Position numbers and translations under genes: made by a program. Shown here piece by piece: positions 18,018 through 30,751 of a stretch of DNA of 64,000 bases. The notes beneath the pieces are model-generated. The model saw only the letters and a list, made by a program, of their open reading frames with translations, did no database searches and was not told the DNA's origin. This stretch comes from Variovorax sp. PBL-H6 (GTDB lineage: Bacteria > Pseudomonadota > Gammaproteobacteria > Burkholderiales > Burkholderiaceae_C). The DNA lies in the NCBI RefSeq assembly GCF_901827155.1, contig NZ_LR594660.1, forward strand, positions 744,001-808,000. Direction: 5' to 3'. Position 1 is the stretch's first letter. Each line of letters starts with the position of its first letter.

Positions 18018-18045
18018 TTGACGTATAAACCCAGTGAGCTATAAT
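18018..18045 (+). promoter_or_regulatory. Strong sigma70-like promoter of the tRNA array
   Basis: TTGACG (18018-18023), 16-base spacer and TATAAT (18040-18045). It reads towards the tRNA genes and is the best promoter in this region. The -10 context GAGCTATAATGCT is shared with the recA promoter at 40.5 kb. Confidence 0.8.
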
Positions 18046-19007
18046 GCTCATCACCGCCTTAAAACGGAAACCGCAGCGAAAGCTGCACAACCAAACTCTT
18101 TCAACGAACGACGACTTTTCAGCCATGAAAACGCAGATGACCAACCTGACAACCGCGATGTGCTCCTTGCACAGCGTGGTTGCGCACGCCCCCAGGGCGC
18201 TGCCAGGCGGTTATCAGCAACCGTCGCTTCCCTCAACGCCCAAGTGCTCCGTCCTCGCAGTCGCCTCGATTGGCAACAGCATCCAGGGATGGTTTAACAG
18301 CAACAACCGGCTTACCTGACGAATAAGACTCCAGCAGTCCCGTCAGGTTAGCACCGGCGGGACCCGCAAAGAGTTGATTCCAGGTTTCACACCAGCCCCC
18401 AGCGGGCGGAATCCCCGAAGAGCGTATCCCGACCGGCAGAACCGAAGAGGTTCAGCCCGAAGCTTCATTGCTTCGTGACCGAAAGGTCAGTCGCATCGTC
18501 GACATCCGGCCTAACAGCCGCGCTCTTTAAAAATTCATTGCGGGAATTACCCGCGGAGTCCTGGTACGGTGACCTGCCGTAGCTGCGGAAACACATCATG
18601 CTTCGAGGGCGTGGTGCCGTGGCGTGCCCCTCCAGCCGCAACTTTCGACAGAAAGCGGTCGCGACTGGATGCCACACCAGATAGGACGATGCGAACATTC
18701 CCCAAGCAACACAAGGGACCGGCCTGGCATCTATAACGGATGTCGAGCCTGCACACCGCAGGAGGTGGTCCCCGGAAGGGTTCGCAAGAGCCCTTTCGTA
18801 GCAGCGCATGCAAAAATCCCAAGGCGAAGTGCACCTGGTAACAGGAACGGGCGCTCAAGGGGCCCATCCATCGGGTTTATAGCTCCGCACCAGGCCCGCA
18901 CCCTGGACGGTTGGTGAGTTTTCACCGTGAAACAGATGGAGCGCTGCTACGAGAGGAACTTCCGATACTGGCGGGCACAGTTTGGCGCCCGGTAGTTCGA
19001 AAATCAC
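18046..19007 (+). other. Structured leader of the tRNA array
   Basis: About 960 bases with no convincing gene and no canonical tRNA. It has several good hairpins: ACCTGACG/CGTCAGGT around 18312-18347, CGAAGC/GCTTCG near 18460, TGACC-GAAA-GGTCA with a GNRA loop near 18477, GCGGG/CCCGC near 18538, and AAGGGTT/AGCCCTTT near 18777. A short frame from ATG 18125 (MKTQMTNLTTAMCSLHSVVA...) is open for 64 codons but its composition is not convincing. Confidence 0.5.
18521..18535 (+). promoter_or_regulatory. boxA-like antitermination site
   Basis: CGCTCTTTAAAAATT closely resembles the rRNA-operon boxA (TGCTCTTTAACAAT). It follows two hairpins in the leader. In rRNA operons NusB/NusE bind boxA to keep polymerase going; here it would help transcription of a 12-kb array of structured RNAs. 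Confidence 0.55.
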
Positions 19008-19083
19008 GCGGATGTAGCTCAGTTGGTAGAGCGCGACCTTGCCATGGTCGAGGCCAGGGGTTCGAACCCCCTCATCCGCTCCA
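19008..19083 (+). tRNA. tRNA-Gly(GCC)
   Basis: Cloverleaf with acceptor GCGGATG/CATCCGC, loop TTGCCAT between CGACC/GGTCG, T arm with TTCGAAC, encoded CCA. First tRNA of the array. Confidence 0.95.
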
Positions 19084-19171
19084 CAACCTGGTCGCCGGCA
19101 GTAGCTGGCGACTGCTAAACCGGCCATGTAGACAAGGTGGCATCCGGAACCGTAACCGGAGCGAAAAACGC

Positions 19172-19258
19172 GGGTGTCGAGCAGCATGGGTTGACTGCAT
19201 CGGACTGTAAATTCGACGCCTTACGGCACACGGGGTTCGAACCCCTGGACACCCACCA
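19172..19258 (+). tRNA. tRNA-Tyr(GTA)
   Basis: Acceptor GGGTGTC/GACACCC, anticodon loop CTGTAAA, long variable region, A73 and encoded CCA. The D arm is unusual. One of two Tyr genes. Confidence 0.85.
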
Positions 19259-19268
19259 TCATCAACAC

Positions 19269-19343
19269 GCGGATGTAGCTCAATGGCAGAGCTGAAGCCT
19301 TCCAAGCTTAAGACGTAGGGTTCGATTCCCTCTATCCGCTCCA
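19269..19343 (+). tRNA. tRNA-Gly(TCC)
   Basis: Acceptor GCGGATG/TATCCGC, anticodon loop CTTCCAA, TTCGATT T loop, encoded CCA. One mismatch at the top of the anticodon stem. Confidence 0.92.
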
Positions 19344-19429
19344 GATTGCTCGAGTAGCTCGAGACCGAAGCCTGTGCAGGTTGGCTCCACGCCACGTCAC
19401 CAGGCCGCCCGCCAGCGTCAAAGGCACCT

Positions 19430-19518
19430 GGAAGATTGGTCGAGTGGACTATGGCGCCTGTTTCGAAAACAGGCGGCTCTGCGAGGGGACCGGGGTTCGA
19501 ATCCCTCATCTTCCGCCA
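19430..19518 (+). tRNA. tRNA-Ser(CGA)
   Basis: Class II tRNA with anticodon stem CCTGT/ACAGG and loop TTCGAAA, long variable arm, G73 and encoded CCA. Confidence 0.95.
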
Positions 19519-19556
19519 CATACAAGTCGTCGCAAGACGCATCGAGAGTACTTTGT

Positions 19557-19640
19557 GGGCAGTTGGCAGAGTGGCTGATTGCGGCAGGCTGTAACCCTGC
19601 TTCCCCAAAGGACGCGGTGGTTCGAATCCATCACTGCCCA
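19557..19640 (+). tRNA. tRNA-Tyr(GTA), second copy, no encoded CCA
   Basis: Acceptor GGGCAGT/ACTGCCC, anticodon stem GCAGG/CCTGC with loop CTGTAAC, A73 followed by CAA instead of CCA. Its sequence differs strongly from the other Tyr gene, so it is not a recent copy. Confidence 0.88.
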
Positions 19641-19662
19641 CAAAGTGCTTTCGAGGTTTTCT

Positions 19663-19740
19663 AGGGGAGTCGCCAAGCTGGTCCAAGGCACCTGATTTTG
19701 ATTCAGGCATCCGCAGGTTCGAATCCTGCCTCCTCTGCCA
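19663..19740 (+). tRNA. tRNA-Gln(TTG)
   Basis: Anticodon stem CCTGA/TCAGG with loop TTTTGAT, acceptor AGGGGAG/CTCCTCT, encoded CCA. Confidence 0.95.
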
Positions 19741-19776
19741 ATTCGTCTCGTCGCACTGCGGCGAGCCTGTCAACAC

Positions 19777-19853
19777 GGTCGGCTAGCTCAGTCGGTTAGA
19801 GCAATCGCTTGATAAGCGATAGGTCCCCAGTTCGAGTCTGGGGCTGACCACCA
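19777..19853 (+). tRNA. tRNA-Ile(GAT)
   Basis: Acceptor GGTCGGC/GCTGACC, anticodon stem ATCGC/GCGAT with loop TTGATAA, encoded CCA. Confidence 0.96.
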
Positions 19854-19955
19854 ACACTTCGGGAGCGATAAACGCTCTTGATACACGTGAAAAGAAGGAC
19901 TTGGAAGTACGGGGCCGGGGTCATCCCGCTGCACTTCACTCGTCCGCATCGTAAT

Positions 19956-20031
19956 GCGGGTGTAGCTCAGCTGGTAGAGCTCCAGCCTCCCAAGCTGGTT
20001 GTCGCGAGTTCGAATCTCGTCGCCCGCTCCA
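19956..20031 (+). tRNA. tRNA-Gly(CCC)
   Basis: Acceptor GCGGGTG/CGCCCGC, anticodon stem CCAGC/GCTGG with loop CTCCCAA, encoded CCA. Confidence 0.95.
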
Positions 20032-20046
20032 ATACGATTCCCATTT

Positions 20047-20133
20047 GCCCGGGTGGTGGAACTGGTAGACACGCTATCTTGAGGGGGTAGTGGCCGTAAG
20101 GCCGTGCGGGTTCGAGTCCCGCCTCGGGCACCA
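20047..20133 (+). tRNA. tRNA-Leu(GAG)
   Basis: Class II, acceptor GCCCGGG/CTCGGGC, anticodon stem CTATC/GGTAG with loop TTGAGGG, encoded CCA. Confidence 0.95.
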
Positions 20134-20526
20134 GAATAGTCTCGGAACGCTCGCATGGCTCCAACGGGCCGTGCGATACAGCGCAACACCTCGCCTGGAT
20201 TTACAGGCTAACCCTGCGGACGCGCAGGGCGACGAGACCTCTCAGTGGCGACAAGCCGCGGGCACCCGGGGAAGACCGGGTGCGTGACGCCCTGAAGGGG
20301 CTTCATGCAGGAGTGCTCAGCTCACGAGCGCTGCTGCATGAACAGAAGTGTTCTATGAGCCGCACCACGGTATGAACGTGCGTTCCTTTGGAGGTCGAAG
20401 GGGGAGCGTCGGATGCAGGCATGGGGGTTCGACGTCCCATGCTCCGCGGATTCTGATTCCAGGTCCGAAAACCGGTGCACGGGGCCGCAATCCCACAATC
20501 CGGTCGGCTCATAAAACACCTTTTCC
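20134..20526 (+). ncRNA. Structured spacer RNA, tRNA-like fragments
   Basis: A 393-base spacer with dense pairing potential: GCACCCGG/CCGGGTGC (20258-20281); TTCATGCAG/CTGCATGAA (20302-20341) with an inner AGTGCTC/GAGCGCT; and a long-range pair GTGTTCTATGAGCCG (from ~20349) with CGGCTCATAAAACAC (from ~20504), one mismatch, enclosing a GGTTCGA-containing hairpin GCATGGG/CCCATGC. No full cloverleaf is found. It may be one or more structured RNAs or decayed tRNAs. Confidence 0.4.
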
Positions 20527-20616
20527 GGAGGGCTGGCCGAGCGGCTTAAGGCTCCAGTCTTGAACACTGGCGAGGGTGAGAATCCTCCATCGGTTCGAAT
20601 CCGATGCCCTCCTCCA
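20527..20616 (+). tRNA. tRNA-Ser(TGA)
   Basis: Class II, anticodon stem CCAGT/ACTGG with loop CTTGAAC, encoded CCA. Confidence 0.95.
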
Positions 20617-20639
20617 AACATCATCGATGTCATCCCTGT

Positions 20640-20715
20640 AGGGGTATGGCGCAACTGGCAGCGCAGCGGCCTCCAAAGCCGAAGGTTGTAGGTTCGATTC
20701 CTACTGCCCCTGCCA
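20640..20715 (+). tRNA. tRNA-Trp(CCA)
   Basis: Acceptor AGGGGTA/TGCCCCT, loop CTCCAAA, G73, encoded CCA. Confidence 0.95.
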
Positions 20716-20743
20716 ACAGGTTGACATCGCGCTTCACAACCCC

Positions 20744-20828
20744 GCGCTCGTGGTGGATTCGGTAGACACACCTGACTCAAAATCAGGCGCCGCAAGGCAG
20801 GCGAGTTCGACCCTCGCCGAGCGCACCA
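20744..20828 (+). tRNA. tRNA-Leu(CAA)
   Basis: Class II, acceptor GCGCTCG/CGAGCGC, loop CTCAAAA between CCTGA/TCAGG, encoded CCA. Confidence 0.95.
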
Positions 20829-20908
20829 ACACACGAGAACCCGTTCTCTGAACGCGGCCCTCAACTCTGGCAGCTCGGCTCAAAGGCCTCGAGCGCCGTC
20901 AACGTCAC

Positions 20909-20995
20909 GCCCCGGTGGTGGAACACTGGTAGACACACTGGTTTCAGGAACCAGCGCCGCAAGGCATACGGGTTCGAGTCCCGTCTGGGGCACCA
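20909..20995 (+). tRNA. tRNA-Leu(CAG)
   Basis: Class II, acceptor GCCCCGG/CTGGGGC, anticodon stem CTGGT/ACCAG with loop TTCAGGA, encoded CCA. Confidence 0.95.
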
Positions 20996-21020
20996 TCTCA
21001 ACTCACCCCAAACAACTCTC

Positions 21021-21097
21021 GCCTCGGTAGCTCAGCTGGTAGTAGCGGCGGATTGAAAATCCGTGCGTCGCAGGTTCGATTCCTGCCCTTGGCACCA
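21021..21097 (+). tRNA. tRNA-Phe(GAA)
   Basis: Anticodon stem CGGA/TCCG with loop TTGAAAA, acceptor GCCTCGG/CCTTGGC, A73, encoded CCA. Confidence 0.94.
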
Positions 21098-21108
21098 TCT
21101 CTTCGTAC

Positions 21109-21183
21109 GGGCGGTTGGTACAGTGGCCGTGCACTGGACTCCAAACCCAGCTTAGGAAGGTTCGAATCCTTCACCGCCTGCCA
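21109..21183 (+). tRNA. tRNA-Trp(CCA)-like, second copy
   Basis: Acceptor GGGCGGT/ACCGCCT, loop CTCCAAA in a CTGGA/CCCAG stem with one mismatch, G73, encoded CCA. The 3' end of the HNH gene on the other strand overlaps it. Confidence 0.8.
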
Positions 21184-22132
21184 TTGTCTGGTCGACTGCT
21201 GCACCCACTGAGCAAAGCCTCCTCGCTTCGAAGCGGTCTACCATGGCCACAAGCTCATCGTAGGCCATGCTGCTCTTTGTCTTCTTCCGGTTGTTTGCAT
21301 GCCACGTCATGAGCTCGCAGTTGATTGGGTGGGCGATATAGAACGGGTCAAGGTTTCGTCTGATGGCCTCGTTCACGGATACTCGATGGTCCCTTGTAAG
21401 ACCCTCAGGATTCGCGGGAGACCAGAACCCTTTTTCGGCCAAGCTGCGCAGCGTTGTCTCGCCGAACACCTCAGGAAGCGAGAAGGGATTGAACGTGAAG
21501 GCGTAGCGGTAGCGACCTTCCCTTCCGTACAAACCGACATGTTCCACGCAAAACTTAGACTTACAGCGGCCTACGGTGACCTTGCCGCAATGTGAGCACG
21601 AGCAGTGGAACAGCTGGCTGTATGGACCGGCGACCAAGGCTTTGTTGAGGCGGTCGAGCCGAACTAACCGCCTTACTGCCTTAGCCGGCACGGTCTTTGG
21701 CGCAGAGCGCTCAATGGTTACGCGGCGGCGCTTCGAAGCGACGGGTAGTCTCGGAGGCGATTTGGCGCGCCGATAAGCTGAAACGGCGGCCGCAATCTTG
21801 TGCCGCGTCTCCTGGCTTCGGCTACCACGTGCGCTGTTGGTGCACTTTGCAGCGCAGGACCTGCCGCAGAACCGCGTCGAAGGTTCGTCCCGAATCACCT
21901 TGTACGGAAGCACTTCAGAGCACTGGAGGCAGCGCTTCGGGTTCGCCTGATGCGCAATTTCTTCCGCTTCGAACCGCAACGCTGCCCTATGCCTGTTGGC
22001 CCTCGCTGAGTTCACGAGGAAGGCTTCATGGCTAGGAAGATGAACCCTCAGGTGTCCATTCAGGGCGCTGAGCGTTCCAAAGTGACGGCGGCACTCAAAG
22101 CAATGCACGAAGACTTCTGGCATAGGGAGCAT
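21152..22132 (-). CDS. HNH-type (homing-like) endonuclease within the tRNA array
   Basis: Encodes up to 326 residues on the strand opposite to the tRNAs; ATG 22123 is an alternative start. The N-terminus has a C2H2-like finger (CFECRRHFGTLSALNGHLRVH). A middle CxxC-rich part (CLQCSEVL...FCGRSCAAKC) looks like a zinc ribbon. The C-terminal part LTRDHRVSVNEAIRRN...HPINCELMTWHANNRK has the DH...H...N spacing of phage-type HNH nucleases. It ends inside the tRNA-Trp gene, so its last residues are read from tRNA antisense. Such genes behave as homing elements in phage tRNA clusters; active-site integrity is inferred by eye only. Confidence 0.75.
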   Translation of the reverse strand: MLPMPEVFVHCFECRRHFGTLSALNGHLRVHLPSHEAFLVNSARANRHRAALRFEAEEIAHQANPKRCLQCSEVLPYKVIRDEPSTRFCGRSCAAKCTNSARGSRSQETRHKIAAAVSAYRRAKSPPRLPVASKRRRVTIERSAPKTVPAKAVRRLVRLDRLNKALVAGPYSQLFHCSCSHCGKVTVGRCKSKFCVEHVGLYGREGRYRYAFTFNPFSLPEVFGETTLRSLAEKGFWSPANPEGLTRDHRVSVNEAIRRNLDPFYIAHPINCELMTWHANNRKKTKSSMAYDELVAMVDRFEARRLCSVGAAVDQTMAGGEGFEPS

Positions 22133-22204
22133 AGAGAGCCAAGTTTAAGCGGCAGGTCGTGCCTGCAAGTCGTGTTGGCCACAAGTCAGGGCGCAGAGTT
22201 CTGT

Positions 22205-22284
22205 CGGGGAGTGTGTGCAAGTGGTCTAAGCCGCCTGGTTCTGAGCCAGGATGTTCGTCAGTTCGAATCTGACCTCCCCTGCCA
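22205..22284 (+). tRNA. tRNA-Gln(CTG)
   Basis: Anticodon stem CCTGG/CCAGG with loop TTCTGAG, acceptor CGGGGAG/CTCCCCT with a 1-72 mismatch, encoded CCA. Confidence 0.9.
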
Positions 22285-22316
22285 CCGTCATCATCAACCG
22301 CTCACAAGGAGACGAA

Positions 22317-22382
22317 ATGTCCAACAAGCGAAAACGTGGCTCGGCACGAAAACCGAAAGCACGAAAACACGAGGAGGCGTAG
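22317..22382 (+). CDS. Highly basic micro-peptide before tRNA-Lys(TTT)
   Basis: A 21-codon frame with a good AAGGAGA site 7 bases before ATG 22317. The product MSNKRKRGSARKPKARKHEEA is about half Lys/Arg. It ends in TAG inside the start of tRNA-Lys(TTT). Its composition suggests an RNA-binding peptide, but a chance frame is possible. Confidence 0.45.
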   Translation: MSNKRKRGSARKPKARKHEEA

Positions 22383-22449
22383 CTCAGCAGGTTCAGAGCA
22401 TCCGGCTTTTACCCGGACGACGAGGGTTCGATTCCCTACGCCTCCACCA
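22373..22449 (+). tRNA. tRNA-Lys(TTT)
   Basis: Acceptor GGAGGCG/CGCCTCC, anticodon stem TCCGG/CCGGA with loop CTTTTAC, encoded CCA. Confidence 0.94.
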
Positions 22450-22544
22450 GTGTCCTGTGCCAAGCAGCCAGAAGACGGCTTCTTCGTACAGCGCAATGGG
22501 ACACCATTGCCAACAAGCTCGCCTCCGGCGGGCTACCCATTACG

Positions 22545-22622
22545 GGTGCGTTAGCTCAGCCTGGTAGAGCACCGGTCATTTGGGACCGGTGGCCGGACGT
22601 TCGAATCGTTCACGCACCCCCA
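22545..22622 (+). tRNA. tRNA-Pro(TGG), odd anticodon loop
   Basis: Acceptor GGTGCGT/ACGCACC, Pro-type D loop with CCTGG, C73 and CCA. The anticodon arm ACCGGT-CATTTGGG-ACCGGT leaves an 8-base loop containing TGG, one base longer than normal. Confidence 0.8.
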
Positions 22623-22727
22623 ACAATCATCCATCGGCGCGCCGGCGCCGCGGAGTACCAGCTTCGGGCCGATGCACTGACGGAAGGTGCCCTCGTAGAA
22701 CGGAACGAGGCCCGGTAACACGGTACG

Positions 22728-22897
22728 GCGAGCTCGCAAGGCAGATACGTGGCACGGTTGCAGAAGCACCTATAGCGGCCTTGGCAACAAGGTGGCCTTC
22801 AACAAGCAAGGGAAGCGCGTCATCCAACACAAGTCTGCGCCCGGAGTAGTTCCCGGGTAGCCCCGTAAGGCGGGTTCGAATCCCGCCGGCTCGACCA
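22728..22897 (+). ncRNA. tRNA 3'-half-like element without a normal 5' half
   Basis: GCGGG-TTCGAAT-CCCGC (22870-22886) followed by CGGCTCG, A and CCA (22895-22897) is a perfect T arm plus acceptor 3' strand. No cloverleaf fits directly upstream. CGAGC near 22730 can pair with GCTCG, which would leave a ~90-base insertion with hairpins such as CCTTG-GCAA-CAAGG. It may be a decayed tRNA, one split by an insertion, or a structured RNA with a tRNA-like end. Confidence 0.45.
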
Positions 22898-22952
22898 CTC
22901 GCACGGCAGCTCGTCCTGAGGCACGCGCGCCGGATTTAACAACAATACCCAT

Positions 22953-23028
22953 CCAACCATAGCTGAGAGAGGCATAGCAGCGGCTTGAAACCCCGCAGAC
23001 GGACGTTCGAATCGTTCTGGTTGGGCCA
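22953..23028 (+). tRNA. tRNA with anticodon GAA but atypical identity elements
   Basis: Acceptor CCAACCA/TGGTTGG, T loop TTCGAAT, encoded CCA. The loop TTGAAAC gives anticodon GAA (Phe), yet it begins with C1-G72, has G73 instead of A73 and a C-C mismatch at 31-39. It may be charged poorly or by another synthetase. Confidence 0.72.
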
Positions 23029-23047
23029 CTTCTTAATCATCAACTCT

Positions 23048-23133
23048 CGGGGTGTAGACCGTAACCTGGTAGCGGGCCGCGTTTGGGACGCGGTGCGAAA
23101 GCCTTGCAGGTTCAAATCCTGTCTCCCCGACCA
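23048..23133 (+). tRNA. tRNA-Pro(TGG), second
   Basis: Anticodon stem CCGCG/CGCGG with normal loop TTTGGGA, enlarged D and variable regions (86 bases), CTCCCCG acceptor strand, encoded CCA. Confidence 0.88.
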
Positions 23134-23156
23134 ACATCAACCACAACAAGGACATC

Positions 23157-23225
23157 ATGGAACAAGTCATCGACGACATCCTGGCCAAGGCGGCCAAGCA
23201 TTTCGGCCTCAGCCCTCAGGGCTGA
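23157..23225 (+). CDS. Micro-peptide between tRNA genes
   Basis: A 22-codon frame from ATG 23157 with AAGGACA upstream, giving MEQVIDDILAKAAKHFGLSP plus QG. It has the pattern of an amphipathic helix. It fills the gap between two tRNA genes exactly. Its reality is uncertain, but the ribosome site and composition are protein-like. Confidence 0.4.
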   Translation: MEQVIDDILAKAAKHFGLSPQG

Positions 23226-23237
23226 CACCAAGAACAC

Positions 23238-23315
23238 GGAGAGTTAGCTGAGTTGGTTTCAAGCGCTGGCCTCATAAGCCAGGGTACGTCGGTTCGAATC
23301 CGTCACTCTCTACCA
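23238..23315 (+). tRNA. tRNA-Met(CAT), elongator type (or tRNA-Ile2)
   Basis: Acceptor GGAGAGT/ACTCTCT, loop CTCATAA in TGGC/GCCA, A73, encoded CCA. The 1-72 pair is formed, unlike in the initiators. Whether the wobble C becomes lysidine (Ile) cannot be told by eye. Confidence 0.88.
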
Positions 23316-23380
23316 TCACCGGCCGCCGCGGCACACCCCGCAGCGCGCGGCCTCATCCCTCCCTTGGGCAACCACTCAAT

Positions 23381-23457
23381 CGGCCTGTAGCGCAGCCTGG
23401 TAGCGCACCTGCATGGGGTGCAGGGGGTCAGAGGTTCGAACCCTCTCAGGCCGACCA
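23381..23457 (+). tRNA. tRNA-Pro(GGG)
   Basis: Acceptor CGGCCTG/CAGGCCG, anticodon stem CCTGC/GCAGG with loop ATGGGGT, encoded CCA. Confidence 0.95.
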
Positions 23458-23511
23458 ATTCGCCTCTCACCAAGGCACCACGACCCGGACCCCGGTCCGG
23501 CCCAACAACCA

Positions 23512-23589
23512 CGGCGCGTGGGAAAGTCTGGTCAATCCGCCTCGTTCGGGACGAGGAGACCGCCGGTTCGAATCCGGCCGCGCCGACCA
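23512..23589 (+). tRNA. tRNA-Pro(CGG)
   Basis: Acceptor CGGCGCG/CGCGCCG, anticodon stem CCTCG/CGAGG with loop TTCGGGA, encoded CCA. Confidence 0.93.
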
Positions 23590-23646
23590 TCTCAGCAACG
23601 GATAAAACCGGCTTCTAAACCATCAACAACGTCTCGAAGAGAGACT

Positions 23647-23766
23647 CCAAATAGCTGTGCACCAGTGCCCGTCGCTAGCCGGACCCGGCTTCCTGAGGGG
23701 TGTCCCCTCATACCGGGGGTGGCGTGGACCGAGGTAGCGGACGCGTTCTGGTGTTCAGCTATTTGG
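23647..23766 (+). ncRNA. Rod-shaped structured RNA between tRNA-Pro and tRNA-Leu
   Basis: Four nested helices: P1 CCAAATAGCTG...CACCAG (23647-23665) with CTGGTG...CAGCTATTTGG (23748-23766), 17 of 19 paired; P2 CGTCGCTA (23670-23677) with TAGCGGACG (23735-23743), one bulge; P3 CCCGG (23684-23688) with CCGGG (23713-23717); P4 TGAGGGG/CCCCTCA (23694-23710) with a 3-base loop. No open frame. It is either a distinct small RNA or an RNase III-type processing hairpin. Confidence 0.6.
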
Positions 23767-23775
23767 AACGGAAAT

Positions 23776-23862
23776 GCGCGTGTGGCGGAATTGGTAGACG
23801 CACCAGGTTTAGGTCCTGATGCCCGCAAGGGCGTGGGGGTTCGATTCCCTTCACGCGCACCA
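23776..23862 (+). tRNA. tRNA-Leu(TAG)
   Basis: Class II, acceptor GCGCGTG/CACGCGC, loop TTTAGGT in CAGG/CCTG, encoded CCA. Confidence 0.95.
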
Positions 23863-23880
23863 CATGTTTCAACGGATTTC

Positions 23881-23956
23881 GGGGGTGTAGCTCAATTGGT
23901 AGAGCGCCTGCTTTGCAAGCAGATTGTCGCAAGTTCGATTCTTGTCACCTCCACCA
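23881..23956 (+). tRNA. tRNA-Ala(TGC)
   Basis: Acceptor GGGGGTG/CACCTCC with a G-U pair, anticodon stem CTGC/GCAG with loop TTTGCAA, encoded CCA. Confidence 0.95.
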
Positions 23957-24106
23957 GATTTCGATAGGTAAGGCAAGCCCGACAGGGGCGCAGCGGTCAG
24001 AATCCCCGCACGGGTGTTAATGTGCACGCTGCGCAAACGGAGGATGGGAAGGAGCCTGGTGGAAGCCGGGTGACGGATACCCCACCGGCCTATTGAATCC
24101 CTCGAT

Positions 24107-24180
24107 GGCGGCATGCCCGAGCGGTTAGGGAGCGGATTGCAAATCCGTGTAGCCCGGTTCGACTCCGGGTGCCGCCTCCA
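24107..24180 (+). tRNA. tRNA-Cys(GCA)
   Basis: Acceptor GGCGGCA/TGCCGCC, loop TTGCAAA in CGGA/TCCG, T73, encoded CCA. Confidence 0.96.
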
Positions 24181-24212
24181 TCTCAGCCCACGTCTCTTGA
24201 ACGGACCGCACC

Positions 24213-24688: not shown

Positions 24689-24700
24689 CAGGAGCACACG

Positions 24701-24880
24701 ATGCAAGACTTTGACCTCAGCACCGCGCCGGCGCACCGGCCCACCACCCGGGCCGAGTGCGTGGCGCTCATCAAGCGGATGAACATGGTTGCCGACAAGC
24801 TCGTCGAGCAGTTCACCGGAATCTTCCAGGCCTGCGCGGCCGGCTCCGGCCAGCCTCGCGGAGACGCTGCCCGCGTATAA
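24701..24880 (+). CDS. Small helical protein, paralogue B (59 aa)
   Basis: ATG 24701 has AGGAG ten bases upstream. The helix RAECVALIKRMNMVADKLVE followed by QFTGIFQACAAG mirrors the upstream paralogue. A short charged N-terminus and Gly/Arg tail differ. Its TAA lies inside the promoter-like motif GTATAAAAC...CTATAG (24875-24895) that precedes tRNA-Thr(GGT). Confidence 0.65.
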   Translation: MQDFDLSTAPAHRPTTRAECVALIKRMNMVADKLVEQFTGIFQACAAGSGQPRGDAARV

Positions 24881-24924
24881 AACGGCGCCCTATAGGTTGC
24901 TCGCTGCTCGCAAGAGCGGCAAAC

Positions 24925-25000
24925 GCTGATGTGGCTCAGTTGGTAGAGCACTCCCTTGGTATGGGAGAGGTCAGGGGTTCGAAGCCCTTCGTCAGCACCA
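24925..25000 (+). tRNA. tRNA-Thr(GGT)
   Basis: Acceptor GCTGATG/CGTCAGC, anticodon stem TCCC/GGGA with loop TTGGTAT, encoded CCA. Confidence 0.95.
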
Positions 25001-25134
25001 AGTTTTGAGAAGCCGGAATCGCCGATTCGCCGAACGCTCGCAAGAGCCTTCCCCGACAAGCAGGCCCGCGTCTCACACCTGACCCGATGGCAGGTGCACC
25101 TTAGGGTGAGTGTCCACGGGAGGCCGCGAGGCCT

Positions 25135-25256
25135 CTGATGCGCAATAGCTCAATCACGGCCGCGGTGTGCGCGGACAAGTTCGGCAAACCTTGCCGGATG
25201 GTCAGAGCGGGGCGATTGGCCCAGGACGCAGGTGCGAGCCCTGCTTGCAGCATCAG
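25135..25256 (+). ncRNA. tRNA-like RNA with extended acceptor and large D-loop insertion
   Basis: CTGATGC (25135-25141) plus GCAA pairs with TTGC plus GCATCAG (ending 25256), an 11-bp stem with one bulge. Inside are a D-arm-like GCTCAAT...GGTCAGAGC with a ~45-base insertion holding TCGGCAA/TTGCCGGA, and a T-arm-like GCAGG-TGCGAGC-CCTGC. No normal anticodon loop with U33 and no CCA. Possibly a decayed tRNA, possibly a purpose-built RNA. Confidence 0.45.
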
Positions 25257-25315
25257 TTAACCCAGTCGGCGGGGGAGTTGTCGACAGGTCGTCCGTAAGT
25301 CACGACCTCCACGCA

Positions 25316-25384
25316 TTGAGATAGCTCAAGGAAGCTCAGAGCACCGGACAAGTCCGGAGGTCCCAAGTTGAACTCTTGGCTCAG
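25316..25384 (+). ncRNA. Anticodon-less tRNA-like RNA
   Basis: TTGAG/CTCAG acceptor-like stem, D arm GCTC/GAGC (25324-25342), T arm CCAAG-TTGAACT-CTTGG (25363-25379), but the anticodon arm is CCGGA-CAAG-TCCGG (25344-25357): a perfect stem with only a 4-base loop, so it cannot decode. No CCA follows. Confidence 0.5.
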
Positions 25385-25647
25385 AAGGCGTGGTTGAGGT
25401 GATGTAAGCCGCGGGAAAGCCCGCTTCCGCTCAGATGCACACGCTGAGACTGTAGGGAGCAGGGTGAGTACCGCGCCGCGCCGAGACTTCATACGTAGCT
25501 CCGGAGAGACGTTGTCGGCAACGCCAGCGACACCCGGAGGGTACTCAGCCAGGGGGGATTCGCGATACCGCCTGGTGCCTGGAAACAGGCAATGAAGGTT
25601 ACCCATCCCCCGTGCTAACAAGACGGGCCCTATCTCCCCCCTCTCAC
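25385..25647 (+). other. Structured spacer
   Basis: About 260 bases without a convincing gene. Pairing elements: GCGGG-AAA-GCCCGC, GGTGAGTACC with GGTACTCAGCC enclosing ~85 bases, and CGTTG-TCGG-CAACG. Its density of hairpins matches the other odd spacers in the array. Confidence 0.35.
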
Positions 25648-25723
25648 GGGGCTGTAGCTCAACTGGAAGAGCGCATCGCCGGCAGCGATGAGGTCGTCGG
25701 TTCAACTCCGGTCAGCTCCACCA
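25648..25723 (+). tRNA. tRNA-Ala(GGC)
   Basis: Acceptor GGGGCTG/CAGCTCC, anticodon stem CATCG/CGATG with loop CCGGCAG; position 33 is C rather than the near-universal U. T loop TTCAACT, encoded CCA. Confidence 0.85.
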
Positions 25724-25739
25724 TCCACAACGTTTCCAT

Positions 25740-25815
25740 TCCAAGGTAGCTCAGCTGGTAGAGCATGCGACTGTTACTCGCGTGGTCGGGGGTTCGATGC
25801 CCTCCCTTGGAGCCA
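25740..25815 (+). tRNA. tRNA-Asn(GTT)
   Basis: Acceptor TCCAAGG/CCTTGGA, loop CTGTTAC in GCGA/TCGC, G73, encoded CCA. Confidence 0.95.
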
Positions 25816-25912
25816 TACATCAACCTGCCCAGGCCCGTGGAGGTCCCACACCTGGCAATTGAAGTCAGCCTTGTCGTCCTGACGGGCTTGGGCAGCTTTG
25901 ATTCCCTGCAAC

Positions 25913-25990
25913 GCCCGGTTAGCTCAGTTGGTTAGCAGCACCCGCCTTACATGCGGGGGGTCGTCTGTTCGAATCAGACACCGGGTACCA
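25913..25990 (+). tRNA. tRNA-Val(TAC)
   Basis: Acceptor GCCCGGT/ACCGGGT, anticodon stem CCCGC/GCGGG with loop CTTACAT, encoded CCA. Confidence 0.95.
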
Positions 25991-26072
25991 CCGTTCCGAA
26001 GTCCGCGCCATTGTTGAGCCCAGGCGCATCCTTGCCGTTCACCGGCGGCTAAATCGACACGCTTCACGATGG

Positions 26073-26807
26073 GTGTCTCGCAAGCCACCACTATCCCTGC
26101 CCGGTCCGCCTCGCTTCGTCGAGAAGAGCGGAAGGTCCCGACCGGGCGAATGGCACGAGTGTGAACACTGCTCAAAGAGTTTCGTGCGCCGCTTGACGGT
26201 GTCGGCAAGTCGGCCGAAGCAAGCGTTTTGTTCGCTGGCGTGTTCGACCGCCGCGGGCCTCGCAAGAAGCCGCTTCAGTGTCCCCTGCCCAGTCTGCGGC
26301 ACGACCGTGAGCGCCACGAAAAGCCGAATTGATGCGGCGAAGTCTGGCCTGGTGTTCTGCTCGCACCGATGCCTGTCAGCCGCCAAGAAGATTGGTGGAG
26401 CGGTGCCTCAGGTAAAGCCTTCTCATTACGGCACCGCGAAGTCGCGATACGGAGACCTGGCGAAAACCCCAGGAGCGAAATGCGCGGACTGCGGGTGCGC
26501 GTTCCGGCCGGTACTGCACGTACACCATATTGACGGCAACCGCAGGCACAACGAAAAGGAGAATCTTGAGGTGCTCTGCCTTCTGCACCATCAGCTGAGG
26601 CACCTTCACCAAGTTGCCGGCGTGTGGTGCTTCAACAGTTCAGTTCTGACGCCGCGCGACAGGCTCCCTGAACTTCGAGCGATGCTCCTGGCATCGACCT
26701 TGTCTCCAGTCGGTGCCGAAAATCCCACGGCCCTTGCCGCCGCCCCAACAAAGGCGCACCGGCCTGGCTGGGTCAGCCCGCACCGACACAACCGTCGGCC
26801 AGGCTAG
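26073..26807 (+). CDS. HNH endonuclease with zinc-binding knuckles
   Basis: Encodes 244 residues; GTG 26073 is the best start and no ATG fits better. Two Cys-rich units occur (CEHCSKSF...FCSLACS and CPVCGTTV...FCSHRCL), then a CxxC and the HNH core: KCADCGCAF, LHVHHIDGNRRHNEKENLEV, CLLHHQLRH. HH and N of the motif and the flanking cysteines are intact. The C-terminal ~50 residues are low complexity. It lies between tRNA-Val and tRNA-Ser and is one of three HNH genes in the array, a pattern known from phage tRNA clusters with homing-type nucleases. Confidence 0.8.
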   Translation: MSRKPPLSLPGPPRFVEKSGRSRPGEWHECEHCSKSFVRRLTVSASRPKQAFCSLACSTAAGLARSRFSVPCPVCGTTVSATKSRIDAAKSGLVFCSHRCLSAAKKIGGAVPQVKPSHYGTAKSRYGDLAKTPGAKCADCGCAFRPVLHVHHIDGNRRHNEKENLEVLCLLHHQLRHLHQVAGVWCFNSSVLTPRDRLPELRAMLLASTLSPVGAENPTALAAAPTKAHRPGWVSPHRHNRRPG

Positions 26808-26818
26808 AACATGTTTTT

Positions 26819-26910
26819 GGAAGTGTGCTCGAGAGGCCTATGAGGGCTGTTTGCTAAACAGCTGGCCGTCGCAAGACGGCCCGGGGGTTCGAATCCCTCC
26901 ACTTCCGCCA
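26819..26910 (+). tRNA. tRNA-Ser(GCT)
   Basis: Class II, loop TTGCTAA in CTGT/ACAG, variable arm GGCCGTC/GACGGCC, G73, encoded CCA. Confidence 0.95.
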
Positions 26911-26938
26911 ATTCAGGGGTAGCGCCCTTACACCACAC

Positions 26939-27029
26939 GGAGAGCGGGCAGGACGGTCAATGCACCTGCTTGGAAAGCAGGCGTCTGTGATGAATAGGCG
27001 ACAGGGTTCGACTCCCTGGCTCTCCGCCA
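26939..27029 (+). tRNA. tRNA-Ser(GGA)
   Basis: Class II, anticodon stem CCTGC/GCAGG with loop TTGGAAA, acceptor GGAGAGC/GCTCTCC, encoded CCA. Confidence 0.95.
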
Positions 27030-27068
27030 TCAATCTTGCGCAAGAGAAACGACCGCCGCGAGGCCGCC

Positions 27069-27128
27069 GGGAGGGTGGTCTGAAAAGCGAACAAGCGGAA
27101 GGGTAAGACGCCCGATTCCCTCCCACCA
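27069..27128 (+). ncRNA. 60-base mini-tRNA-like RNA ending in ACCA
   Basis: A perfect 7-bp acceptor GGGAGGG (27069-27075)/CCCTCCC (27118-27124) followed by A and CCA, but only 42 bases lie between the strands. A GGG-TAAGACG-CCC hairpin with a 7-base loop sits where the T arm should be. There is no room for full D and anticodon arms. It looks like an end-mature tRNA mimic rather than random decay, because acceptor and CCA are intact. Confidence 0.5.
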
Positions 27129-27185
27129 ATTTGCTGTCAGCGCACCGTCGCGCTGGCCTCCCCTCCCCGTTCGAGAGTTTTTTGG

Positions 27186-27262
27186 GTTGGACGTCGCCTA
27201 GCGGTCCAAGGCTGAAGGCTGTGACCCTTCCATCGCGAGTTCGAATCTCGTCGTTCAACCCA
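27186..27262 (+). tRNA. tRNA-His(GTG)
   Basis: Has the extra G-1 opposite C73 that marks tRNA-His, anticodon stem GAAGG/CCTTC with loop CTGTGAC, encoded CCA. Confidence 0.95.
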
Positions 27263-27289
27263 AAGCACTCTCTTGCTTCCAAATTTCGT

Positions 27290-27365
27290 GGGTCGCTAGC
27301 TCAGCTGGAAGAGCGGCGGACTCTTACTCCGTAGGTCCCCGGTTCGAGCCCGGGGCGGCCCACCA
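27290..27365 (+). tRNA. tRNA-Lys(CTT), copy 1
   Basis: Acceptor GGGTCGC/GCGGCCC, loop CTCTTAC in CGGA/TCCG, encoded CCA. Differs from copy 2 at only about seven or eight positions. Confidence 0.95.
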
Positions 27366-27417
27366 CACCAACATTTCTTTCGGACGGCGCCCTTGCGCGT
27401 TCGAGTCTCACCACATC

Positions 27418-27493
27418 GGGTCGCTAGCTCAGCTGGCAGAGCAACGGACTCTTAATCCGAAGGTCCCCGGTTCGAAACCGGGGCGGCCCACCA
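27418..27493 (+). tRNA. tRNA-Lys(CTT), copy 2
   Basis: Acceptor GGGTCGC/GCGGCCC, loop CTCTTAA in CGGA/TCCG, encoded CCA. Tandem duplicate of the preceding Lys gene. Confidence 0.95.
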
Positions 27494-27500
27494 CCCTCGC

Positions 27501-27576
27501 GCGCCATTAGTTCAGTGGATAGAACAAGGGCCTCCTAGACCCTCGGTCGCAAGTTCAAACCTTGCATGGCGCTCCA
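27501..27576 (+). tRNA. tRNA-Arg(CCT)
   Basis: Acceptor GCGCCAT/ATGGCGC, loop CTCCTAG, encoded CCA. Reads AGG, a rare codon in GC-rich hosts. Confidence 0.92.
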
Positions 27577-27636
27577 CACATCGGCAGCTGTAACCAGCAG
27601 CTGCTGCTAAACCCCCTCCCTTCACGACCCATACCC

Positions 27637-27711
27637 GCCCCCGTAGCACAGTGGTAGTGCTCCTGCATCGTAGGCAGGCTTACGTCTGTTCGATTCAGAC
27701 CGTGGGCACCA
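27637..27711 (+). tRNA. tRNA-Thr(CGT)
   Basis: Anticodon stem CCTGC/GCAGG with loop ATCGTAG, acceptor GCCCCCG/CGTGGGC with one mismatch, encoded CCA. Confidence 0.92.
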
Positions 27712-27717
27712 TTCCTC

Positions 27718-27792
27718 GCGCGACTAGCTCAGGGGTAGAGCGCTTGGTTGACATCCAAGAGGTCGGTGGTTCGAGACCACCGTCGCGTACCA
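27718..27792 (+). tRNA. tRNA-Val(GAC)
   Basis: Acceptor GCGCGAC/GTCGCGT, anticodon stem CTTGG/CCAAG with loop TTGACAT, encoded CCA. Only six bases after the previous tRNA. Confidence 0.95.
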
Positions 27793-28325: not shown

Positions 28326-28889
28326 ATGGAACCCCGTATCCTGGCCGTCGACCGCGCATATACGCCTGACCGGTGGATTGGAGCGGCTGAGGCCCTGAAC
28401 CTCTTCTCTCGAGGCATCGTGCAGACGTCCTTCGGCGACGTCGCGATGACACTGCGCGGCGGCATGAACGCGAAGACCGGCAAGCAGTCGATTCTTGAAG
28501 TCCATTCCATCCTGGTTGTGGACAGCAAGTCGCATGTCGTCACCGACTTCAACTACGCGCCCCTCGACCGCCGGCGCCTCTTCAAGCGTGACCTGCACAT
28601 CTGCGCGTACTGCGGGGAACGCTTCAGCCACGACAAGCTCGAGGCAGAGCACGTCACCCCTGACGCGCAGGGCGGGGCCTACTCGTGGGAGAACCTCGTG
28701 AGTGCGTGCCACCCCTGCAACCAACGCAAGGGGTGCCGCACGCCGGAACAGGCAGGCATGCCGTTGCTCTACCTACCGTACAGGCCGAGCCGCTTTGAGT
28801 CGCTCATCCTTGAGAGCCGGAACATCTTGGCTAGCCAAGCAGATTTCCTGCTCGCACGTGTGCCGAAGCACAGCCGGCTGCACTCCTAA
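28326..28889 (+). CDS. HNH endonuclease, phage type
   Basis: Encodes 187 residues from ATG 28326. The C-terminal half holds the zinc-stabilised HNH module: CAYCGERFSHDKLEAEHV (CxxC, then E-H), SWENLVSACHPCNQRKG (N and CxxC) and RTPEQAGMPL. The N-terminal ~90 residues (MEPRILAVDRAYTPDRW...) are typical of a broad group of phage and bacterial HNH proteins. Third HNH gene in the tRNA array. Followed by a strong terminator. Confidence 0.85.
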   Translation: MEPRILAVDRAYTPDRWIGAAEALNLFSRGIVQTSFGDVAMTLRGGMNAKTGKQSILEVHSILVVDSKSHVVTDFNYAPLDRRRLFKRDLHICAYCGERFSHDKLEAEHVTPDAQGGAYSWENLVSACHPCNQRKGCRTPEQAGMPLLYLPYRPSRFESLILESRNILASQADFLLARVPKHSRLHS

Positions 28890-28891
28890 GT

Positions 28892-28923
28892 GCAAAAGCG
28901 GGGCCGAAGCCCCGCTTTTTCTT
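28892..28923 (+). terminator. Rho-independent terminator inside the array
   Basis: Stem AAAGCGGGGC/GCCCCGCTTT followed by TTTCTTTT. tRNA-Arg(TCT) starts five bases later, so that tRNA needs readthrough, antitermination or its own promoter. Confidence 0.9.
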
Positions 28924-28927
28924 TTGC

Positions 28928-29004
28928 GCGCCCTTGGCCGAATGGACTGAGGCATCCCTCTTCTACAGGGAAACATGCGGGTTCGACTCCTGCAGGGCGC
29001 TCCA
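28928..29004 (+). tRNA. tRNA-Arg(TCT)
   Basis: Acceptor GCGCCCT/AGGGCGC, anticodon stem TCCCT/AGGGA with loop CTTCTAC, encoded CCA. Reads AGA. Confidence 0.94.
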
Positions 29005-29040
29005 TTTTTCGCAACACGACCTACAGGCAAGGAGGCCCCC

Positions 29041-29259
29041 ATGGTCACCCTCCCATCAAAACAAGCCCGTAGCGCCCTCTATCGACGCGACGCGGCCTAT
29101 CGAGCGGGAACGCCCTGCGCCTCCAGTACTGCGTTGCGCTCTCACGTTGAGCGCGACCTCAGGCGCATCACGAGTGAGACTCTCGACGCGCTGAAGCACC
29201 CTGCTGCGATTCCCAGCAACGTCATTCTTGAGGCGCTGCTCAGGGCGCGCCAGGTATAA
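29041..29259 (+). CDS. Small basic protein (72 aa)
   Basis: ATG 29041 has an excellent AAGGAGG site. The N-terminus is basic (MVTLPSKQARSALYRRDAAYR) and the C-terminal half is helical (ITSETLDALK...VILEALLRARQV). No family recognised. The stop overlaps a promoter-like motif for the next gene. Confidence 0.65.
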   Translation: MVTLPSKQARSALYRRDAAYRAGTPCASSTALRSHVERDLRRITSETLDALKHPAAIPSNVILEALLRARQV

Positions 29260-29297
29260 GACGGGGGCCTACACGGGAGAACTCACATATTCTCGCT

Positions 29298-29795
29298 ATG
29301 GCCTATTCCCCCAAATCGACCCGCCGCCTCCCCGCGACTCCGCCGAAGGCCAAGAGTCCCTTCGCTGGGGCCAACGACGACAACTGGCGCCTGCCGTACT
29401 GGGGGAGCGTAGCGGCCATCCCTGCCGCCTACTTGATGCTTTCATTCCTCGTGGGCATCCTTCCTTTTCCTCTTCTCTGGGTCTGGCTCATCGCCGTCCC
29501 GGGTGCAGCCTGCGCCGGGTTGCTCGTCTACCGACGTCTTAGCATGTCTTCAAGCTACAGTTGGATGCAGACCTTCATTGCCTGCAGCCTCGGCTTTGGC
29601 TCCCTCCTTGTCTGGTCTTCGCTCAGTCTCCTGTTTCGCGCGGTGGGCCTCATGGATTTCGGCTTCAGCGAAGCAGCCGAACTGGCTACCGACGAAGGCT
29701 TGGTTTGGATGGCCGGCGCATTGCTCGGCGTCCTATTTGCCCAGTTTCTGATTGGCTTCGCTGCCATCAGCGCGCTCGAGCGAGCCCTCGACTAG
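29298..29795 (+). CDS. Multi-spanning membrane protein (165 aa)
   Basis: ATG 29298 follows a Ser/Pro/Lys-rich N-terminus and about four hydrophobic helices (VAAIPAAYLMLSFLVGIL, LLWVWLIAVPGAACAGLLV, MQTFIACSLGFGSLLV, GLVWMAGALLGVLFAQFLIG). CTACAC at 29269-29274 may be its -10. The topology is similar to the 204-aa protein that follows, so they may be distant relatives. No function assigned. Confidence 0.7.
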   Translation: MAYSPKSTRRLPATPPKAKSPFAGANDDNWRLPYWGSVAAIPAAYLMLSFLVGILPFPLLWVWLIAVPGAACAGLLVYRRLSMSSSYSWMQTFIACSLGFGSLLVWSSLSLLFRAVGLMDFGFSEAAELATDEGLVWMAGALLGVLFAQFLIGFAAISALERALD

Positions 29796-29808
29796 ACCAC
29801 CTTCTCCC

Positions 29809-29884
29809 GCCGCTTTAGCTCAGAGGCCAGAGCAGCTCCTTTGTAAGGAGTTGGACGTCCGTTCGAATCGGACAAGTGGCACCA
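29809..29884 (+). tRNA. tRNA-Thr(TGT)
   Basis: Acceptor GCCGCTT/AAGTGGC, loop TTTGTAA in CTCC/GGAG, encoded CCA. Confidence 0.95.
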
Positions 29885-29963
29885 TCTTCCAGCCCGTTCG
29901 CGGCCCGTCCACCATCTCATCCGTAGCTCCAAACCCTCCCGTGCGCTTCGAAGCCCTTCCACC

Positions 29964-30578
29964 ATGCAATCCAACTCCGACCAGTGGCGCGAGACCGCCG
30001 AACAAGCTGCCGCGCAAGCAACCGAGGCCGGCCGCCGCGTGTTCGACGTTGCAGCCAGAACCGGGTCCTTCCTCAAGCAAGGCGCCGAGTTCGTTGCTGC
30101 TGACAAGGCGAGCTATGCCGGTCGGGCGTTCTGGGCTACCGCGGCGGCTATCGGCCTGAGCGCCTTCCTACTGCGCTTCCCGTTGCTCTCGCTTCCGCTG
30201 GGTGACATCCTCGTGGTCGCGCTCGGCGTGCCCCTAGCCGCACTTATTGGCCAGCTCGCATTTCGCCAACTTGCGCCGAGCCAGACGCTGACGGTTCGTC
30301 AGGCGTTCGTAGCCAGCGCCACCGGCTTCGCCCCATCCCTGGTTTACGACATCCTATTCTTGGGAGGCCGCGCCAGCCTGTTGTATGTGACGACGCTCCT
30401 GGTCGTCTCCTGGGTCATCCAGGTCTTCTTCGGCACGGCTGCCTTGCACTTTTGGCAGAACCGCCTTGCTGAGCTTTTGACGGCACTCAATACTCCTCTG
30501 GAGGATGAGGGAGAATCGTTGGCTGAGACGCTCCGGGTCCGCGTTGCTGAAGCGCAGGCCAGGTTCCGTAAGGGCTGA
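29964..30578 (+). CDS. Membrane protein with phasin-like N-terminus (204 aa)
   Basis: ATG 29964. The first ~50 residues form a polar amphipathic helix (WRETAEQAAAQATEAGRRVF), followed by four or so hydrophobic helices (residues ~55-155) and a charged C-terminal helix (EGESLAETLRVRVAEAQARF). No family recognised. It lies between tRNA-Thr(TGT) and tRNA-Leu(TAA) with a GC-rich hairpin (30602-30620) behind it. Confidence 0.7.
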   Translation: MQSNSDQWRETAEQAAAQATEAGRRVFDVAARTGSFLKQGAEFVAADKASYAGRAFWATAAAIGLSAFLLRFPLLSLPLGDILVVALGVPLAALIGQLAFRQLAPSQTLTVRQAFVASATGFAPSLVYDILFLGGRASLLYVTTLLVVSWVIQVFFGTAALHFWQNRLAELLTALNTPLEDEGESLAETLRVRVAEAQARFRKG

Positions 30579-30673
30579 GACCCACCGGGGTTCGTTGCAT
30601 CGGGCCGCCCTCGGGCGCCCTTCTCGTTCCTAAGCCTTCCCCTGGTCCGCCGACCCGGTCTAGGGCTTTCATC

Positions 30674-30751
30674 CTCCGCGTGGCGCAATTGGCAGACGCG
30701 CTCGCTTTAAAAGCTTGTTGGTTGCCGGTTCGAAGCCGGCCGCGGAGACCA
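30674..30751 (+). tRNA. tRNA-Leu(TAA)-like with short variable region
   Basis: Acceptor CTCCGCG/CGCGGAG, Leu-like D arm (GGCGCAATTGGCAGACGCG), loop TTTAAAA, A73 and CCA. Unlike normal bacterial tRNA-Leu it has only about six variable-region bases, and the anticodon stem CTCGC/GCTTG has two mismatches. Last tRNA of the main array. Confidence 0.7.

Follow-up and report, generated by a model that had tools for sequence, protein, structure and literature searches.

A near-complete set of tRNA genes with its own tmRNA and SmpB on a large plasmid of Variovorax sp. PBL-H6

The DNA analyzed here, a window of 64,000 nucleotides (the term denotes the whole stretch throughout), is part of an 839,194-bp replicon (about 839 kb) of Variovorax sp. 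PBL-H6, which is present alongside a chromosome of 5.99 Mb. The window carries an array of 41 transfer RNA (tRNA) genes, and the replicon as a whole harbors 48 tRNA genes, spread over four places and covering 20 amino acids, together with its own transfer-messenger RNA (tmRNA) and SmpB. This tRNA set is real, larger than first noted, and a rich example of an already known kind; its unusual features are the split over separate, complementary loci and a tmRNA architecture unlike that of the host. In the favored reading, to which an about even chance is given, the set would serve as a replacement tRNA pool that, combined with ribosome rescue, compensates for damaged host tRNAs, a function that we infer from gene content. 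It is favored because a near-whole spare set lies behind a strong promoter and is accompanied by ribosome-rescue and RNA-repair genes.

A preliminary description of this DNA had announced about 41 tRNA genes on one strand, with two initiator-like tRNAs elsewhere, and had proposed a run of ARAGORN. Applied to the whole window, this program returned exactly 41 genes between positions 19008 and 30751, all on the plus strand, and two Met(CAT) tRNAs beyond the array, giving 43 tRNAs in the window. The initiator reading of these two leans on hallmark features of initiator tRNAs. The genes are arranged as follows:

19008..27792, plus strand: 38 tRNA genes, from Gly-GCC to Val-GAC, upstream of a terminator-like site (ARAGORN, Rfam)
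28928..30751, plus strand: the last three tRNA genes, Arg-TCT, Thr-TGT and Leu-TAA, with two open reading frames (ORFs) in between (ARAGORN, Rfam)
35773..35849, plus strand: initiator-like tRNA-Met with C1xA72 and a GGG/CCC stem (ARAGORN)
47258..47335, plus strand: second initiator-like tRNA-Met with C1xU72 and U37 (ARAGORN)

In a whole-window scan, 37 of the 43 tRNAs passed the Rfam gathering score; when two Rfam scans were joined, 40 of the 41 array genes reached at least 29 bits (the gathering score), leaving only Pro(TGG) at 23048 below it (27.9 bits). ARAGORN yielded no match in 100 first-order random 13-kb sequences of like composition (0/100). Plasmid 2 of Variovorax sp. SRS16 matches the window with 99.994% and 100% identity over two overlapping parts, and the locus-tag gaps in this near-identical record, whose table itself is devoid of RNA genes, presumably correspond to 41 + 2 RNA genes. 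At a density of 3.5 genes per kb (41 within 11.7 kb), the main array ranks as a tRNA array unit in the sense of Tran et al. and of Morgado and Vicente, for which approximately 20 genes at 2 per kb are required. CCA is encoded in 40 of the 41 genes, in agreement with the earlier statement that most of them encode it. Standard pairs account for 755 of 782 stem pairs in 46 of the 48 plasmid tRNAs (two without a CCA end were excluded) vs 703 of 714 in 42 host tRNAs; stem pairing of the plasmid tRNAs is a little lower. The comparison with the host chromosome, likewise proposed in the preliminary description, gave 59-89% identity between plasmid tRNAs and host genes of the same anticodon, and most plasmid tRNAs are therefore not recent host copies.

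The array covers 18 amino acids according to ARAGORN; Asp and Glu are absent, and Arg is represented solely by CCT and TCT. As descriptions of the array, both observations had been made before and stand; for the replicon they do not, as one further tRNA cluster of five genes (Asp, Arg-CCG, Asp, Arg-GCG, Glu) carries exactly the isotypes absent from the main array (Asp, Glu, and CGN-Arg) and completes the set. By contig coordinates it lies about 590 kb from the array; on a circular replicon, the distance in the opposite direction would be about 235 kb. For a random draw of five genes from the host's 42, the probability that all belong to the six types lacking in the window is 6e-5 under a simple model set up post hoc; complementary loci would be equally expected from an old array split by rearrangement. 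The total of 48 excludes an ARAGORN Ser(GCT) call at 536105-536188 of the replicon, which lies inside an IS66 transposase gene on the SRS16 plasmid. At a distance of 1.5 kb from the five-gene locus, a weak tRNA-Sec-like match is seen (local positions 4114-4195; 26.7 bits, cut-off 47).

On the chromosome, 42 tRNA genes were detected, approximately one per anticodon, with rRNA operons not visible in the genome copy examined. Of its 39 anticodons, 36 recur on the plasmid, an overlap relevant to a possible chromid status of the replicon, which would require essential genes missing from the chromosome. Ile-GAT and Ala-TGC are usually encoded in rRNA operons; the only assignable plasmid-only anticodons not expected there are Gln-CTG and Arg-GCG. 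We do not conclude that the chromosome has lost Ile-GAT and Ala-TGC, as 16S searches there were also empty and the 16S model missed 5 of 14 control genomes too. By wobble rules, every sense codon is decoded by the plasmid set apart from CGA and perhaps AUA; reading of the latter hinges on the gene at 23238, for which elongator Met and Ile tRNA are not distinguishable.

The second component is a group of genes for ribosome rescue and RNA repair. The replicon encodes a two-piece betaproteobacterial tmRNA (RF01850, beta_tmRNA, 109.7 bits, gathering 84) with the tag ANESNFRLAA (ARAGORN) and smpB within 100 bp, whereas the host tmRNA is of the one-piece type with the tag ANDERFALAA. NCBIfam cut-offs are exceeded by SmpB, TrpRS, CysRS, and RtcR, Pfam cut-offs by Pth2 and the RNA ligase. 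TrpRS, CysRS, an IleRS-type ligase, a GluRS fragment, Pth2, the RNA ligase, RNase R, RtcR, two AlkB proteins, and a queuosine-salvage protein were all found on the replicon at 100% over their full length, their names being partly taken from annotation. Two further ORFs lie near the array in the window:

32151..32669, plus strand: RF1-derived GGQ protein of 172 aa with the N-terminal part absent (RF-1, E 1.7e-20)
32752..33195, plus strand: SecB-like chaperone (E 2e-14)

The GGQ protein fits RF1 models best, yet stays under their cut-offs, and an identity as PrfH was rejected (61.4 bits vs a PrfH cut-off of 166.65).

The third component is the putative expression signals of the array:

18018..18045, plus strand: sigma-70-type promoter-like site, TTGACG-16-TATAAT, with 11 of 12 consensus bases
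18522..18534, plus strand: boxA-like antitermination site in the long leader, GCTCTTTAAAAAT, exact 13-mer match
28894..28919, plus strand: strong terminator-like hairpin with 11 pairs and a T-rich tail, ending the 38-gene stretch

The strong promoter postulated earlier corresponds to the sole promoter-like match in 17300-31300, a region for which shuffles average 2.7 such sites. The boxA-like site is an exact match to a search string chosen after the site had been seen, and it resembles the Escherichia coli rrn boxA. Due to the terminator-like hairpin, 38 genes may form one unit with three beyond it. Relative to the single array proposed previously, the last three genes are set off by this site, and one gene lacks an assignable anticodon.

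Taken as a replacement pool, the main array would supply most of a near-complete set of tRNAs belonging to the plasmid itself. Transcribed like an rRNA operon, it could yield enough tRNA to replace, not merely supplement, the host pool. The plasmid tRNAs would then sustain plasmid translation when host tRNAs are cleaved or limiting, e.g. by tRNA-targeting immune or competitor nucleases upon entry into a new cell, and tmRNA-SmpB, Pth2, and the RF1-like protein would clear stalled ribosomes. Selection seems to keep near-completeness, not codon bias. A published analogue is provided by phages, whose tRNA-Tyr and tRNA-Lys are reported to counteract tRNA-cleaving defenses (PMC11555353).

The association of smpB, tmRNA, and large tRNA sets on other plasmids is counted in support of the replacement pool. 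Of 72,556 plasmid records, 62 contain an SmpB match, and chromosome-sized records are among these. As a panel, 13 large plasmids were compared: all eight with smpB possess a tmRNA and 37-76 Rfam tRNA matches, and the five without it, each searched for SmpB, RF00023, and RF01850, show no tmRNA and 0-21 matches. The selection was non-random: six plasmids were chosen via an SmpB match, two via array-like matches (pS16, PM1), and four via DUF87, with SRS16 as the subject. Among the six, Priestia p2 was also a high-scoring plasmid in the array search, and its rnr-smpB block may have been relocated from a chromosome; on the Vibrio plasmid of the panel, the tmRNA is about 130 kb from smpB. The Rfam counts of the panel used stricter filters and are undercounts (17 for PM1 vs 27 by ARAGORN).

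Such an array is less unusual than the preliminary description had supposed: 12 of the 13 large plasmids have 12-76 Rfam tRNA matches, and comparable sets have been published for pMPPla107, Mycobacterium avium, and pMP7017. The Pseudomonas plasmids pMPPla107 and pBASL58 resemble the Variovorax replicon in their 52 and 44 Rfam tRNA matches and in having tmRNA and smpB about 250 bp or less apart; they differ in that their transfer system is MPF_I, not F-type, and their tmRNAs fit standard RF00023, not the two-piece betaproteobacterial form. Features of this kind, near-full isotypes and an own tmRNA with SmpB, are encoded on the Variovorax replicon. For pMPPla107, an almost full tRNA complement with 38 tRNA loci was reported (PMC4105467). 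Bifidobacterium pMP7017 is a large plasmid with a tRNA array plus tmRNA, 17 of whose 20 tRNAs are highly transcribed; in contrast to the present set, the highly transcribed tRNAs cover 12 amino acids, and codon adaptation is preferred by its authors, who also name pCPAA3 of Curtobacterium as a tmRNA plasmid (PMC10832533). The giant plasmids of M. avium harbor array units of 26-27 tRNAs for 19-20 amino acids, termed a putative antidefence system; they differ in being linear, in a type VII/IV secretion hybrid, and in smaller sets, and tmRNA is unmentioned in the available part of that report (PMC12803027). In Acidithiobacillus ferrooxidans and Acidithiobacillus ferrivorans, a tRNA array is located in a putative integrative and conjugative element of about 300 kb, and a title cited in the same source describes the acidithiobacilli array as a complete, dispensable set (PMC5468388); these arrays are chromosomal and are likened by description. 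Plasmid RPME01 of Methylibium petroleiphilum PM1 is similar in its 27 tRNAs for 20 amino acids, MPF_F, and an HNH homologue just past the array (43%, E 2e-49), and differs in having one array and neither SmpB nor tmRNA, both of which were searched for. Among the titles and abstracts listed for the literature on Variovorax linuron megaplasmids, none describes this tRNA set; a 2020 genome paper on linuron-degrading Variovorax, outside the search results, may mention it.

Selection on tRNA structure was addressed with sibling arrays because the array stretch compared is identical in the named strains: over 7.9 kb of the array, 100% identity is seen to plasmids of strains PBL-E5 and WDL1. A scan of genome contigs with backbone proteins gave one locus, in strain WDL1. 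Homologous arrays with largely the same gene order are found on RA8 plasmid 3 (23 genes, 16 amino acids) and WDL1 plasmid 3 (27 genes, 20 amino acids), both first picked as array-less. In 22 gene pairs from these arrays, 71 of 90 changed stem pairs are still standard, 59 of them by two-sided change (shuffles: mean 35.9, max 52), and 12 of the 22 pairs have identical anticodon loops. This compensatory change points to selection for tRNA structure in such arrays, evidence that is indirect for the Variovorax PBL-H6 array. Genes for Val, Lys, Phe, and Thr are absent from the RA8 array and present in that of WDL1 plasmid 3, so that one lineage lost or gained coverage.

Several observations weigh against a replacement pool. 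Concerning the tRNAs themselves, at least two stem mismatches are found in 5 of 46 plasmid tRNAs vs 1 of 42 host tRNAs. Signs of weakness are seen in Ala-GGC (C33), Met 47258 (U37), one Asp (C37), and the tRNA at 22545 (anticodon loop of 8 nt), and Leu(TAA) at 30674-30751 is devoid of the long variable arm typical of Leu tRNAs, leaving its identity uncertain. With no reader for CGA by wobble rules, the pool is not fully autonomous. Concerning the accessory genes, the IleRS-type ligase and Pth2 remain below NCBIfam cut-offs, GluRS is a fragment running into an IS21 element, and no sigma-54 (RtcR) site was found in the window at up to one mismatch. The smpB-linked gap of the panel is narrower than the Rfam counts suggest, because three smpB-less plasmids have array regions with 27, 23, and 27 tRNAs by ARAGORN, and plasmid size is a confounder, the smpB-bearing plasmids being larger on the whole. 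Finally, changes in the anticodon loop have been proposed as evasion of anticodon nucleases in mycobacteriophages (PMC10264068). Between plasmid and host, identity is 0.73 in anticodon stem-loops vs 0.72 in the rest of the tRNA (n=40 of 48; Met(CAT) and tRNAs without a same-anticodon host partner were excluded); a general excess of loop mutation, as anticodon-nuclease evasion would predict, is not seen. Evasion is nonetheless conceivable, since anticodon loops are a little less alike, at 0.90 identity vs 0.97 in a small chromosomal baseline (n=14 best-scoring tRNAs, one class relative), and since, among the 14 comparisons listed, Lys-TTT, Asn, Val-TAC, Arg-TCT, Arg-CCT, Thr-CGT, and His depart from the host tRNAs at position 38. 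The Ser anticodons GGA, TGA, and CGA are all present, i.e. anticodons cut inside the anticodon are not avoided.

An alternative, considered unlikely, is that the tRNAs fit the host pool to the codon usage of the plasmid. Codon usage was derived from our own gene calls and 600 kb of the chromosome. The G+C content at third codon positions (GC3) is 0.77 in plasmid genes vs 0.86 in host genes, i.e. A/T-ending codons are more frequent on the plasmid. Of the isotypes present in duplicate, Lys and Tyr have the highest and second highest plasmid/host ratio of all 20 amino acids (Phe is 7th, Trp 9th, and Asp 10th; joint p=0.015, post hoc test), a weak trend in favor of some such role. Codon compensation is also what the authors of the pMP7017 study favor (PMC10832533). 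However, plasmid and host codon frequencies correlate with r=0.96, the 36 duplicated host anticodons amount to nearly everything, Gln-CTG and Arg-GCG alone are added beyond what rRNA operons would supply, and CGA, used 1.8 times more on the plasmid, has no plasmid reader. As the main reason, codon compensation is weakened by this correlation and the near-total duplication of anticodons. The supply of rare codons suggested by the preliminary description's emphasis on AGA/AGG readers is likewise weakened by the CGN-Arg tRNAs on the replicon and a codon usage that tracks the host.

To an equally low degree, it is conceivable that the additional tRNAs and rescue factors make up, by gene dosage, for the general burden that about 800 extra genes place on translation, without any link to nucleases. 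Larger plasmids more often carry tRNAs, for which relief of burden has been proposed (PMC8628078), and the plasmid duplicates much housekeeping, as annotated (SecA, SecB, gyrase A, LigA, RecA, ThyA, DHFR). Yet relief of burden alone does not predict tmRNA, RtcR, RNA ligase, and Pth2, and the host manages with approximately one gene per anticodon, so that a second near-full set goes far beyond this.

A further explanation draws on ORFs that fill the three longest inter-tRNA gaps of the array:

21152..22132, minus strand: zinc/HNH-like ORF of 326 aa (phrog_23051, function unknown, E 2.6e-30; the HNH-like assignment is our own reading)
26073..26807, plus strand: HNH endonuclease ORF (phrog_1271, HNH endonuclease, E 2.2e-21), missing from the PLSDB gene list of SRS16
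28326..28889, plus strand: HNH endonuclease (profile and homologue searches)

Homologues of the last ORF lie directly 3' of the arrays on PM1 RPME01, RA8 plasmid 3, and WDL1 plasmid 3. As an array-specific marker, HNH was rejected: the family occurs in 178 of 200 family genomes, though it is rare on plasmids, with 11 of 72,556 records (E 1e-15). That a viral or plasmid array of little use was spread and shuffled by such resident endonucleases would account for the HNH ORFs within and just past arrays and for tRNAs that look degraded, but is very improbable given largely intact stems and CCA ends, compensatory change in sibling arrays, complementary isotypes of the two loci, and an HNH family that is common on chromosomes.

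Two neighboring stretches within the array deviate from ordinary tRNA genes:

22545..22622, plus strand: tRNA with an anticodon loop of 8 nt and without an assignable anticodon (ARAGORN; Rfam 52.6 bits)
22665..22897, plus strand: 233-nt structure with tRNA-like ends (RF00023 25.8 bits, gathering 47; fold z -0.75)

The former combines G-1/C73-like ends and a Pro-like body with the 8-nt loop CATTTGGG and might represent either a decayed gene or a tRNA of the frameshift type. The latter exhibits a 7-bp acceptor-like pairing, a perfect T-arm, and an ACCA end, with no normal tRNA middle. A true tmRNA at this position was dismissed as weak; RF00023 scores ordinary tRNAs alike, and the fold is no better than that of shuffles.

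Regarding the remaining replicon, SRS16 plasmid 2 encodes F-type transfer genes (TraA/L/E/K/B/V/C/F, H/G, N/U), type II/IV pilus genes, RepB, and ParAB as annotated. The array does sit on an element bearing conjugation and type IV pilus genes, as noted at the outset; self-transfer is only putative. No relaxase is named in the annotation parts covered for SRS16 plasmid 2, for which no whole-plasmid relaxase profile search was made, and MOB-suite classes the record as non-mobilizable. Upstream of the array, one further gene is found:

15803..17296, plus strand: HerA/DUF87-DUF5710 ATPase, with homologues on 241 plasmid records

An ORF at 8621-10852 of the window is annotated in SRS16 as "recombinase", yet Pfam gives a B12-dependent ribonucleotide reductase insertion domain (E 2.7e-7). 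NAD-related genes (two NAD synthases, pncB, NADAR, NUDIX) are annotated at 604983-616482 and 388699-389685 of NZ_LR594667.1 and might counter an NAD-depleting defense. The same record includes, as annotated, a type I-E CRISPR-Cas and a Wadjet-type system of the plasmid (437115-447688 and 509201-516124).

It has long been asked why entire tRNA sets are found on large plasmids and phages. It is tentatively suggested that giant plasmids of several bacterial groups may have repeatedly built their own decoding and rescue layer against tRNA- and ribosome-damaging immunity; with the same reserve, this layer would comprise a near-full tRNA pool, an own tmRNA-SmpB, and RNA sensing and repair. The Variovorax plasmid offers separable parts (main array, five-gene locus, initiator-like tRNAs, tmRNA-smpB, RtcR) in a soil bacterium with named strains, and its sibling plasmids differ in completeness. 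For the loss of each part, different outcomes are predicted by models of codon compensation, burden relief, and protection from tRNA-cleaving nucleases. That smpB and tmRNA accompany large tRNA sets on giant plasmids, as seen in a small panel, represents a simple rule that is testable genome-wide.

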